From: Shouchella hunanensis
Lineage (GTDB): Bacteria; Bacillota; Bacilli; Bacillales; Bacillaceae_D
Reading direction: 5' to 3'
Length of the DNA stretch: 64,000 bases
NCBI RefSeq assembly: GCF_028735875.1
Contig: NZ_CP117834.1
Coordinates: 1,972,001 to 2,036,000 of the forward strand
The notes beneath the pieces were generated by a model that was given only the letters and a program-made list of their open reading frames with translations, was not told the origin of the DNA and ran no database searches. This document shows, piece after piece, positions 46,256 to 49,422 of the stretch; the stretch's first letter is position 1; each line of letters starts with the position of its first letter. A program made the translations under genes and the position numbers.

Positions 46256-46870
46256 TTACTGCACCCTTCGATAAATAGATGCTACTAGATTCATCATCCA
46301 TGTAGGCACTTTACTGGGAAAGTACGCCTTATGATAGTGTTTGTAATAGCCTGCCTTTAAATCATTCCACTGGTAACAAGTTTTTGTTTGGGAGAAGCGA
46401 GCAATATCAATAATATGAACACGGTCGTCTTTTGTCACAAGTAAATTGTGGAGATGGATATCAGACGGGTTTAGCCCTTTCTTTTTAGCATAGGAAAGAG
46501 CGTGGTCGACTTGTTGGACATAATCAGGCAGAATGGGAATGCCTTCTTCTAGACATTGAAAAAAAGTGTGTCCATCAATATGATCGATGACAAGATAATT
46601 TGAACCGCTCTCATAGAGCGTTGGATAATAAGAGCTATCTTTTACCTTCCTATAATTATGTTGTTCTTGTTCTGCAATGTTTTCATATGGCGGGTAAAAT
46701 ACTTTTAGTACAAGAGGTTCTCCTTTTAGTTTGAATGCTGTAGCGCTTCTTCCTACGCCGCAAATCGTTAAATCTGGATGATGAGCCTTTACATGATAGG
46801 TCGACTTATCTTCTTGGAAGACAACCGTTTTGGCATACGAATGGTATAAGGTAATGGGATTCGGCATCAT
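46256..46870 (-). CDS. Small protein-kinase-like protein (YrzF-like)
   Basis: 204 residues (first of two tandem ATGs at 46870/46867). A reduced protein-kinase fold: glycine loop CGVGRSATAFKL, Lys in LVLKVFYPP, hinge YLVIDHIDG, catalytic loop SDIHLHNLL (replacing HRDLKxxN) and metal-binding Asp in IIDIARF. It resembles the small B. subtilis kinase YrzF and RIO/Bud32 proteins. Two bases separate it from the stop of the 39-aa gene (TAAGGATG), so it is translated from the same riboswitch-controlled mRNA. Confidence 0.8.
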   Translation of the reverse strand: MMPNPITLYHSYAKTVVFQEDKSTYHVKAHHPDLTICGVGRSATAFKLKGEPLVLKVFYPPYENIAEQEQHNYRKVKDSSYYPTLYESGSNYLVIDHIDGHTFFQCLEEGIPILPDYVQQVDHALSYAKKKGLNPSDIHLHNLLVTKDDRVHIIDIARFSQTKTCYQWNDLKAGYYKHYHKAYFPSKVPTWMMNLVASIYRRVQ

Positions 46871-46872
46871 CC

Positions 46873-46992
46873 TTACTTTAATCCTTTTCTTTTTTTGATT
46901 TCTTTTTTTACAAGTGGAACAATGTGCTTTTGCGCTTGTTTTATCCCTTGACGTACCGCTTGTGATTTTAGAAGCTTCATCAGTTTCCCCAT
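46873..46992 (-). CDS. Basic 39-residue peptide behind a Mn riboswitch
   Basis: Starts MGKLMKLLKSQAVRQGIKQ and ends KKEIKKRKGLK. AAAGGAG lies 9 bases before the ATG. It contains about 13 Lys/Arg and only one acidic residue (Glu), so it is strongly cationic and could form one amphipathic helix. It is the first gene after the yybP-ykoY riboswitch and is tightly linked to the kinase gene. I do not recognise a family. A small regulator of metal homeostasis, a nucleic-acid or membrane binder, are all possible. Confidence 0.65.
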   Translation of the reverse strand: MGKLMKLLKSQAVRQGIKQAQKHIVPLVKKEIKKRKGLK

Positions 46993-47029
46993 ATGATCTT
47001 CTCCTTTAATGGTGGCGGCAAAGGGTAAC

Positions 47030-47066
47030 AAAAAAGACCTTTGCCCACCAGAATGGACAAAGGTCT
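47030..47066 (-). terminator. Riboswitch-controlled terminator
   Basis: On the minus strand GACCTTTGTCC pairs with GGGCAAAGGTC, then TTTTTTG. Its 5' arm shares CCTTTG (47058-47063) with helix P1 of the aptamer, so the two folds exclude each other. Confidence 0.9.
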
Positions 47067-47150
47067 CGCAAGCAACCTTAACGTTGCCAGTAGTGCCGAG
47101 GATTTCTCCTGTAATGACGACAGCTACTATTATGCTACTCCCCTTTGGGA
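47055..47150 (-). ncRNA. yybP-ykoY (manganese) riboswitch aptamer
   Basis: Minus-strand RNA contains the conserved family segments in order: CAAAGGGGAGTAGC, GTCATTACAGGAGAAATCC, TCGGCACTACTGGCAACG, and GCGAGACCTTTG. P1 forms between CAAAGG (47147-47142) and CCTTTG (47063-47058). The P1 3' strand is also the terminator 5' strand, so Mn2+ binding should stabilise P1 and prevent termination: an ON switch. Known members control Mn exporters (mntP, P-type ATPases, TerC-like). Confidence 0.88.
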
Positions 47151-47173
47151 TTTCGTTTTCGATGTTTTCATCA

Positions 47174-47202
47174 AGTATAGCTCTCTAGTCTAAGGTTTTC
47201 AA
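47174..47202 (-). promoter_or_regulatory. Promoter of the riboswitch operon
   Basis: Minus strand -35 TTGAAA (47202-47197), 17-bp spacer, -10 TATACT (47179-47174). Transcription would start about 15-20 bases before the aptamer. Confidence 0.82.
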
Positions 47203-47383: not shown

Positions 47384-48268
47384 TTATCCGTTTCGCCCAT
47401 GGTACTCAAGCATAAATTGTTTGAACGCTAGCGCTGCTTTCGATAAATAGCCCTGTTTTTTATGAATTAAATAAATGGGACGTTCAATGGTAAGACCGTC
47501 AACGTCTACTTTTTCAATACCGTTAATGGAAGACACAACGGAATCTGCAATGAATGCAACCCCCTCGTTTTCTTTTACAAGACCAACAATACTATTGATT
47601 TCCAAGCCTTCGTAAACGGTATGAAGCGTTCGATTTTGTGAAGAAAAAGTAGAATCAAGTAATTTTTTTAGTTCAGTTCCAGGAGTGTAGGAAATGAATG
47701 GTTCGGCTTCCAGCTCATCAATGGAAATGGGCTGTCGCTTAACGAAGGGATGATCTGCAGCAGCAATAAGCACGATGCGATCTGTAAACAAAGTAGTGTA
47801 TTCAAGCTCTGGAAATGTCTTATATTGTGTTCCGAAACCAAAATCAACTGTATTGGTTAAGAGATCTTTAATGATGGTGGATGCTTTTCCCTCTTGTAGT
47901 GAGAGGGAATAACTAGGGCTAATCTGTTTAAAGATTTTAACCATAGCAGGTATATAAGAGAGACCGAGACTATGGACGTAAGCGATGGAAATACTACCCA
48001 TTGTCGGATCAATGAGCTCTTTTAACTGTAACTTAGAATGATCCCAATGTTGAACCATTTGCTTGGCGTTTAAAAGAAACGCTCGACCATAGCGATTTAA
48101 GATGATTTTACGGTTTTTTCGGTCAAACAATGGCACCCCTAATTCTTTTTCGAGGTTGTGGATGGAGCGGCTTAAAGCCGATTGAGATAGTAGTAATAAA
48201 TCGGCTGCCTTCGTGATGTTCTCCTCTTCGGCAACGACAATGAAATTTTGTAATTGCGACATTTCCAT
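47384..48268 (-). CDS. LysR-type transcriptional regulator
   Basis: 294 residues. Winged helix-turn-helix: LQNFIVVAEEENITKAADLL, LLSQSALSRSIHNLEKELGVPLF, then DRKNRKIILNRYG. A two-lobe effector domain follows (ISIAYVHSLGLSYIPAMV; GVAFIADSVV). The ATG at 48268 has GGAG 10 bases upstream; an ATG six bases later is possible. Divergent from the EamA transporter, which it probably controls in response to an unknown small effector. Confidence 0.9.
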   Translation of the reverse strand: MEMSQLQNFIVVAEEENITKAADLLLLSQSALSRSIHNLEKELGVPLFDRKNRKIILNRYGRAFLLNAKQMVQHWDHSKLQLKELIDPTMGSISIAYVHSLGLSYIPAMVKIFKQISPSYSLSLQEGKASTIIKDLLTNTVDFGFGTQYKTFPELEYTTLFTDRIVLIAAADHPFVKRQPISIDELEAEPFISYTPGTELKKLLDSTFSSQNRTLHTVYEGLEINSIVGLVKENEGVAFIADSVVSSINGIEKVDVDGLTIERPIYLIHKKQGYLSKAALAFKQFMLEYHGRNG

Positions 48269-48522: not shown

Positions 48523-49422
48523 ATGAGTTCACGTTACATATATGGTGCAACAATCATAGGTGCTGCGTGTTGGGGCTTGATCGGTCTTTTCATTGCGCCT
48601 TTATACGAAGTGGGATTTACACCTTGGGATGTTGTAACAATACGAGTTGTGTGTACATTTGTTCTTTTAATCGGAATCATGTTTGTCTTCTACCGAGAGC
48701 AGCTTAAGGCACAGTGGAAAGATCACTTTTTCTTTGCATCTGCAGGTATCATTAGTATTGTGTTTTTTAATTATTTCTATTTTGAAGTGTTTTCTGAATC
48801 GAGTTTATCGGTTGCCGTTACGTTGCTTTACACAGGGCCGGTATTTGTTACGCTTCTATCGCGTCTCTTTTTTAAAGAACGATTGACGTTTCGCAAAATA
48901 ATGGCTCTTGGGATGGCTGTACTAGGTTGTGCATTTGTTGTTGGCTTTTTTCCAGTTGGTCAACAAGAGGTATCCCTATATATAGTGGGATTTGGCTTAT
49001 TATCCGGCTTTTTTTATGCATTGTATAGTATACTCACAAAGCCTGTTACAAAAAAATATTCAGTGATGACGATCACGACATACGTGTTTTTTTACGCAAG
49101 CGTATTTATGGTGTTGAGTAGCAACACGACTCAAAAATGGCATTTGTTTTTAAGCGCTGAAGTGCTCATTAGTGCCTTTCTACTTGCCTCGATTTCAACA
49201 GTAGCAGGTTATATTTTCTATACCATCGGCTTAAAGCATTTAGAAGCAAGTAGAGCATCCATTCTAGCTACGGTAGAACCTCTTGTAGCCGTGGTGACAG
49301 GCATGATCCTTCTAGGAGAAGTGTTAACGCTTTGGCAAATTGTCGGCATACTCTTTGTGCTATATGCGGCCGTTTTAGTCGTAGAACGAAAGAGTAAGAC
49401 CGTATATGTGAACAATGAATAG
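48523..49422 (+). CDS. EamA/DMT-superfamily transporter
   Basis: 299 residues, ten membrane helices in two EamA repeats (ACWGLIGLFIAPLYEVG in the first; LEASRASILATVEPLVAVV in the second). Such proteins export amino acids or related metabolites. AAGAGAGGAG precedes the ATG. Divergent from the LysR gene with 254 bp between; I could not pin down a clean promoter in that gap. Confidence 0.88.
   Translation: MSSRYIYGATIIGAACWGLIGLFIAPLYEVGFTPWDVVTIRVVCTFVLLIGIMFVFYREQLKAQWKDHFFFASAGIISIVFFNYFYFEVFSESSLSVAVTLLYTGPVFVTLLSRLFFKERLTFRKIMALGMAVLGCAFVVGFFPVGQQEVSLYIVGFGLLSGFFYALYSILTKPVTKKYSVMTITTYVFFYASVFMVLSSNTTQKWHLFLSAEVLISAFLLASISTVAGYIFYTIGLKHLEASRASILATVEPLVAVVTGMILLGEVLTLWQIVGILFVLYAAVLVVERKSKTVYVNNE

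Follow-up and report, generated by a model that had tools for sequence, protein, structure and literature searches.

Riboswitches of the manganese class normally control Mn exporters, TerC-like proteins or P-type ATPases, and a leader of this kind in the genome of Shouchella hunanensis (4,064,600 bases, one contig) stands before genes for a 39-residue basic peptide and a small kinase, which raises the question of what such a switch controls at this locus. The literature surveyed, which was available in excerpts and with the founding papers outside the survey, ties the yybP-ykoY class to membrane transporters, to TerC/YkoY proteins or to a Ca/Mn ATPase, and within those excerpts neither a kinase operon nor such a peptide was found as a target. 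We analysed the locus within a stretch of 64,000 nucleotides (hereafter the window) and examined by computation how the aptamer is built, whether its metal-site nucleotides are conserved, how it overlaps with the terminator and how often riboswitch and kinase occur together in different genera, as well as whether the peptide gene is coding and which catalytic residues and which predicted fold the kinase has.

Organisation of the locus

On the minus strand the window carries, in this order, a promoter-like pair, an aptamer, a terminator, the 39-residue gene and the 204-residue gene (Table 1). This arrangement had been reported in a preliminary description, with the peptide at 46992-46873 and the kinase starting at 46870, two bases past the peptide stop; its coordinates proved correct and its observation was confirmed and enlarged overall. 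For the promoter that it proposed there is a match, TTGAAA and TATACT at a spacing of 17 nt, and a similar pair ahead of the aptamer is also visible by eye in relatives, but the match alone stands at chance level, with 7 promoter-like sites in the region against 5.1 expected.

Upstream of the operon and adjoining it on the same strand lies a LysR-type regulator gene (window 47384-48268, minus strand), from which a nearby EamA-type transporter gene (48523-49422, plus strand) diverges, and downstream of the kinase there is a reading frame matching glycosyltransferase family 2. By eye, the genes flanking the operon vary between genera. Of the 80 named loci described below, the one in Shouchella miscanthi is nearest, with no difference from the window kinase across residues 1-203.

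Table 1. Features of the riboswitch-kinase operon, in window coordinates
Feature	Position	Strand	Description and basis
Promoter	47174..47202	-	TTGAAA, 17 nt, TATACT; 10/12 consensus matches; similar arrangement in relatives by eye
P2-less yybP-ykoY (Mn2+) aptamer	47055..47150	-	P1, P1.1, P3, P4; sub-cut-off RF00080 match, covariation, R1
Aptamer loops	within 47055..47150	-	L1 = GGGGAGUAGC; L3 = UCGUCAUUAC
Switch strand	47058..47063	-	CCUUUG; P1 3' strand and part of terminator 5' arm
Intrinsic terminator	47030..47067	-	stem 47067-47034; 15 pairs and T run; 5' arm covers the P1 3' strand in 58/66 riboswitch loci
Possible ON-state lock helix	47011..47049	-	terminator 3' arm (GGUGGGCAAAGG) with downstream CCUUUGCCGCCACC; forms if P1 is forced
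Shine-Dalgarno of peptide gene	47001..47007	-	AAAGGAG; sequence
Cationic peptide gene	46873..46992	-	39 residues; pI 11.4; charge about +11.6
Atypical kinase gene	46256..46870	-	204 residues; starts 2 bases after peptide stop

A yybP-ykoY aptamer without P2

The assignment of the leader to the yybP-ykoY class, made from its sequence in the preliminary description, is borne out by its structure, its invariant L1 and L3 loops and covariation, although the Rfam cut-off is not reached. A default Rfam scan at the gathering score reported nothing in the window. At a relaxed threshold the leader matched RF00080 from end to end with 23.8 bits, for which E was 1.2e-4 when 501 bases were searched with 4227 families and 2.4e-4 over the whole genome; this is below the gathering score of 45 bits in Rfam 15. 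None of 16 relatives passed this cut-off, and at E 0.01 two of eight relatives were matched, one of them the copy at L085 (25.3 bits), and six were without a match. The L085 copy is likewise P2-less and stands before a YkoY/TerC gene (TIGR03716, 299 bits). The absence of P2 is the departure from the standard form of the class, and because all 16 tested relatives fall below the cut-off, including the copy before YkoY/TerC, we read the failure to reach it as a limit of the Rfam model for P2-less forms. Annotation that relies on the current cut-off may then overlook Mn riboswitches of the P2-less kind, which seem to score under it. On R1, most of whose sequences came from kinase loci and which has the window itself as one of its rows, the window aptamer scores 105.1 bits. 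None of 200 shuffles of the leader folded as well as the leader itself (z -3.85), and a large part of this difference comes from the terminator.

Covariation was assessed over 19 related aptamers, where 95.9% of cells were paired and 13 of 26 pairs changed on both sides. For four of five covariation measures no shuffle out of 500 was as high among these related sequences; for the fifth, which considers further pair types, 141 of the 500 shuffles did as well. Changes on both sides occur in four of the five helices, with one such pair in P1 and none in the invariant P1.1, and the helices P1, P3 and P4 are backed by covariation. In the alignment, loop L1 with its G run and, in L3, the stretch UCGUCA..AC, including the putative Mn-binding adenosine, are invariant in all 19 aptamers.

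In the Lactococcus lactis riboswitch (PMC9190785), the Mn site is formed by G9/G10, U39, C40, A41, U44 and C45, its adenosine binds Mn2+ through N7, and the switch helix pairs A3-G7 with C96-U100. When these positions are mapped by eye onto the present aptamers, the Mn site falls on UCA and C in L3 with an equivalent of A41 present, the position of U44 is occupied by A, and the switch helix corresponds to AAAGG/CCUUU. Matches of the aptamer as a PyrR site (21.2 bits) or as ZEB2_AS1_2 were rejected, both being far under their own cut-offs. The sub-threshold PyrR-site match overlies leader and terminator (window 47028-47199, minus strand); a PyrR site is described beside the yybP-ykoY leader of Bacillus methanolicus ykoY (PMC4342826), perhaps an overlap like that of the match with the window leader.

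Terminator overlap and a possible third helix

P1 pairs CAAAGG (47147-47142) with CCUUUG (47063-47058). This second strand coincides exactly with the arm, 47058-47063, through which P1 and the terminator had been proposed to exclude each other. The same overlap recurs in relatives (Table 1). There are two terminator-like sites in the region against 1.1 expected, the one in the leader being long. When the leader is folded to the end of the terminator 5' arm, the aptamer fold appears unforced at -29.3 kcal/mol, and the whole leader favours the terminator (-57.4 versus -48.7 with P1 forced). An ON switch, in which the switch helix excludes the terminator, is supported.

Forcing P1 also leaves the freed terminator 3' arm to pair with a stretch downstream (Table 1). 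In shuffle tests of this duplex, 0 of 100 shuffles were as good for the S. miscanthi leader (L059) and 3 of 100 for leader L060; over all riboswitch loci, many of which are close relatives, at most 5 of 100 shuffles matched the pairing in 45 of 66 (mean z -2.4). It was not significant in 21 of the 66, among them L118 and L133, for which the terminator arm was wrongly picked. By eye, the downstream stretch is the 5' arm of a second terminator in several genera, and in the window it stands just upstream of the Shine-Dalgarno sequence. This third helix is possibly a lock of the ON state; if it were absent, the Shine-Dalgarno AAAGGAG could pair with the upstream CCUUU.

The window leader shares with RF00080, as represented by L. 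lactis yoaB and B. subtilis ykoY (PMC9190785, PMC11087558), the L1/L3 loops, the Mn-site adenosine and a switch helix common to the terminator. It differs in being without P2 and below the Rfam cut-off, in having a kinase operon downstream and in the possible third helix that takes up the terminator 3' arm.

The riboswitch often accompanies the kinase across genera

A scan of GTDB genomes returned 513 relatives of the kinase, and the best 80 of these form the 80-locus set (set A). In 66 of them the kinase is preceded by a riboswitch on its own strand; in 14 none was found. As these relatives had been chosen by similarity, an order-wide sample of 150 genomes was drawn, 90 with a kinase match at E <=1e-15; the order-wide set (set B) comprises 85 kinase matches (E <=1.1e-40) from 84 genomes with up to 3 kb upstream. 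A same-strand riboswitch was found upstream in 27 of these 85 loci, against a chance expectation of about 0.07 by our own estimate from 93 riboswitches in 41 genomes. At one further locus (L217), left out of the 27, the riboswitch lies on the opposite strand, and 57 loci have none, three of their stretches (L200, L240, L242) ending early at contig ends. The counts for the two sets are not fully independent, since some species occur in both sets and R1 draws mainly on kinase loci.

With 14 of 80 and 57 of 85 stretches without a riboswitch, the kinase is not always under riboswitch control. Eight loci of the B. pumilus group (L097, L101, L111, L113, L115, L119, L123, L129) keep the kinase, and a riboswitch was not found upstream of it. 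One locus counted among the 27 (L237; G109:C1:2106309-2110979) holds a second, broken kinase copy with three stops, and the Mn riboswitch still stands upstream of it.

Closer to the window the association tightens. Across the 41 genomes of the family, all 18 kinases closest to that of the window (E <=1.1e-54) and 6 of the next 11 (E <=2.8e-26) have a same-strand riboswitch upstream, kinase matches weaker than E 1e-25 being excluded from these counts. Within the genus, 12 of the 13 genomes searched have the kinase, and in all 12 both riboswitch and peptide stand ahead of it.

Genes between riboswitch and kinase

What stands between riboswitch and kinase varies. Among the 66 riboswitch loci of set A, 23 have the peptide, 10 an FbpB-family protein and 33 neither that could be found. 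The peptide is followed directly by the kinase in 19 loci (in five of which its stop-to-stop frame begins early, so that the program lists the peptide before the riboswitch) and by DUF6376 and then the kinase in four; one locus has DUF6376 and the kinase, eight have FbpB, Spo0M and the kinase, two have FbpB with TerC, and TerC alone and Spo0M alone occur once each. In the remaining 30 none of the searched genes precedes the kinase, 15 of these having a DUF6376 gene behind it. The constant gene behind the riboswitch is the kinase, not the peptide.

The identity of these neighbours was checked on examples. Two FbpB-like proteins matched PF13040 at 57.2 and 38.0 bits (cut-off 25), one reaching 22.6 against the cut-off of 60 of the NCBIfam FbpB equivalog, and Spo0M (PF07070, 86.7 bits) and the lipoprotein (PF19903, DUF6376, 146.7 bits) were matched likewise. 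Besides, TerC lies between riboswitch and kinase in 3 of the 66 loci, and by eye in L021-L024, which ties the kinase to Mn genes. TerC of B. subtilis supplies exported enzymes with Mn as their metal and also shows Mn efflux activity (PMC10550928), and the link to TerC would place the kinase in Mn homeostasis.

In the 85-locus set the peptide was present at 10 loci, FbpB at 4, DUF6376 at 9 and Spo0M at 3 on the kinase strand, Spo0M being reversed relative to the kinase at L217. None of the four was found at the 57 loci without a riboswitch, with search profiles for peptide and FbpB that were made from riboswitch-kinase loci. Peptide and FbpB were not found together at any of the 165 loci. The FbpB-family loci behind an Mn2+ riboswitch are L078, L086, L088, L090, L094, L105, L108, L110, L114 and L138, and in nine of these ten Spo0M comes next after FbpB, a family named for Fur control. 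In set A, L081 carries FbpB and Spo0M without a riboswitch, on a contig that begins about 980 bases before the kinase.

A predicted atypical minimal kinase

The 204-residue protein scored 18.2 bits on the Pfam Pkinase family (PF00069), under the gathering score of 31.7, and had profile matches to solved kinases from 6e-8. Residues K56, E69, D137, N142 and D155 are invariant in all 51 kinase rows, and we take them to be the catalytic Lys, Glu, Asp, Asn and Asp of the kinase motifs. HRD is replaced by LNPSD, which has no His, and DFG by DIA or DVA without the F-G, and for these reasons the protein is an atypical member. Its AlphaFold model (pLDDT 93.2, pTM 0.87) found kinases as best matches in Foldseek with probability 1.00; the 50 matches listed, LanKC kinase domains among them, are all kinases, with a TM to the query of 0.44-0.59, that of RIO2 being highest. 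The protein thus models as a minimal kinase with the fold of the kinase superfamily. RIO kinases, Hanks-type PknB and LanKC domains share this predicted fold and the catalytic K, E, D, N and D, whereas the window kinase is distinguished by its 204 residues, the missing HRD His, DIA/DVA in place of DFG and the TM range given above for the matches listed.

A conserved basic peptide

The preliminary description took the 39-residue frame for a genuine cationic peptide, and purifying selection and homologues in relatives agree. Codon differences amount to 1264 at the third position versus 586 and 317 at the other two, and dN/dS is 0.02-0.16 in the six of seven pairs that gave a usable value, some dS values being saturated. 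G16, P26, E31, K34 and R35 are invariant in 20 peptide rows, and the AlphaFold model (pLDDT 83, pTM 0.39) predicts helices at 2-8 and 11-36. All clear matches in the family search (17 genomes, E <=8.7e-11) lie within such an operon, weaker matches (E above 0.03) being counted as chance. The peptide stop and the kinase start, two bases apart in the window, overlap as TAATG in Oceanobacillus. On the kinase tree of 79 of the 80 rows, from which L063 was dropped on account of a frame that closes too early, at the start of the match, the presence of the peptide needs three changes, at least two of them required by well-supported branches.

Some candidate identities of the peptide were rejected. It has no Pfam match, PF13040 included, and an hhalign probability of 0.2% as a relative of FbpB, and as an amphipathic antimicrobial its hydrophobic moment is not significant, with 6.7% of shuffles as high. 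A 247-residue frame in Oceanobacillus jeddahense (L066:3866-4606) that would fuse peptide and kinase arises from one extra base in an A run relative to its relatives, and since a sequencing error is possible there, this fusion was not used as evidence.

Among known small proteins, FbpA-C of B. subtilis are likewise small and basic, and an FbpB-family protein holds the place of the peptide in 10 of the 66 loci. They are unrelated to it in sequence and belong to Fur and iron, whereas the peptide stands behind a riboswitch. We know of no sRNA partner for the window peptide, unlike FbpA-C. The parallel drawn earlier to MntS of Escherichia coli (42 residues), also a small protein in an Mn regulon, is weak, because MntS is induced at low and not at high Mn (PMC4361602), whereas an ON riboswitch would act at high Mn.

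Proposed role in the response to manganese

We consider it likely that Mn2+ switches on an operon for an atypical kinase, to which the peptide belongs as an accessory particular to its clade and coupled in translation. We infer that Mn2+ is bound by the leader and induces the operon: with little Mn2+, P1 would give up its 3' strand to the terminator and transcription would stop, and at high Mn2+ the docked aptamer would hold P1 and block the terminator, so that the kinase operon would be made. In the Shouchella clade the first gene would provide a helical, strongly basic protein of 39-41 residues, and as its translation is presumably coupled to that of the kinase, both would be made together. 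The peptide would most likely act either as a partner of the kinase or, in the manner of FbpB, as a small basic protein that binds RNA, and the FbpB relative found in its place makes an RNA-chaperone-like role possible. The predicted minimal kinase, presumably active on a substrate of its own, may take part in the answer to Mn2+ excess. The preliminary interpretation holds as to riboswitch class, ON switch and a peptide-kinase unit, which is kept behind the riboswitch in relatives; it does not hold in placing the peptide at the centre of that unit, 33 of the 66 riboswitch loci being without peptide or FbpB.

Other roles of the peptide have to be weighed against this model. It is possible, though we rather doubt it, that the peptide binds RNA as a small basic protein and acts apart from the kinase, as is proposed for FbpA-C with FsrA, the Mn2+ signal being all that the two have in common. 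An FbpB-family protein takes the first place of the peptide in 10 of the 66 loci and the two were not found together in the 165, FbpABC are proposed RNA chaperones of the iron response (PMC12871923), and the peptide is predicted to be helical, but peptide and FbpB have no sequence relation, the FbpB-like protein itself falls short of the NCBIfam cut-off, and the close or overlapping stop and start in Shouchella and Oceanobacillus, with both genes kept in all 16 tree rows of that clade, point the peptide to the kinase. The same TAATG overlap or 2-base gap would equally suit a leader or coupling frame that sets the translation of the kinase and has no protein function of its own, and the absence of the peptide from 43 of the 66 riboswitch loci would fit as well; we hold this unlikely, as the amino acids are under purifying selection (dN/dS 0.02-0.07 in five of six usable pairs) and the peptide is also kept ahead of a lipoprotein gene (DUF6376), at a distance from where the kinase begins (4/80 and 6/85 loci).

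It is very improbable that the peptide is secreted or membrane-active, with the kinase serving to process it or to give immunity, after the pattern of class III lanthipeptide systems. The cationic, predicted helical peptide and the LanKC domains among the Foldseek matches would agree with this, whereas the hydrophobic moment is not significant, no signal peptide is seen by eye, the residues of the window peptide include a single Ser and no Thr, and inspection of 19 neighbourhoods by eye showed no cyclase or transporter gene common to them. As for the ligand, the missing P2, the score under the Rfam cut-off and the A at the U44 position (by eye) could indicate a different ion as the ligand of the aptamer, or a degenerate relative that binds no ligand; this too is improbable, given that the other metal-site nucleotides are invariant, that the helices covary and that the P2-less form also stands before the YkoY/TerC gene in L085. 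An operon for an atypical kinase switched on by Mn2+ remains the reading that we prefer.

If it is true, Mn2+ excess would be answered by protein modification or RNA-level control also, beyond metal pumps, and the pairing of riboswitch and kinase in many Bacillus relatives suggests that the excess is perhaps met by a kinase there too. The kinase, the peptide, DUF6376, Spo0M and the FbpB homologue are genes named by the analysis in which this can be tested. More tentatively, a phosphorylation response to Mn2+ excess may extend throughout the Bacillaceae, with an RNA sensor driving the atypical kinase and with metal riboswitch, kinase and small basic proteins forming one Mn regulon, in which unrelated small basic proteins, such as this peptide or FbpB, would take the place of the partner in different clades. 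P1, terminator and lock would then form a three-helix 'domino' platform, the freed terminator arm opening the next terminator or ribosome-binding site.

Two further riboswitches were observed beside these operons. The genome of S. hunanensis carries a second copy (C1:741090-741263; L001:1501-1674) with a P2-like insert, which at 47.7 bits is its one RF00080 match over the cut-off and, by eye, stands directly before a TerC-like gene. At a Sutcliffiella locus (L082:5730-5831), a second riboswitch found with R1 lies, by eye, ahead of a putative CNNM/HlyC-CorC metal transporter gene.
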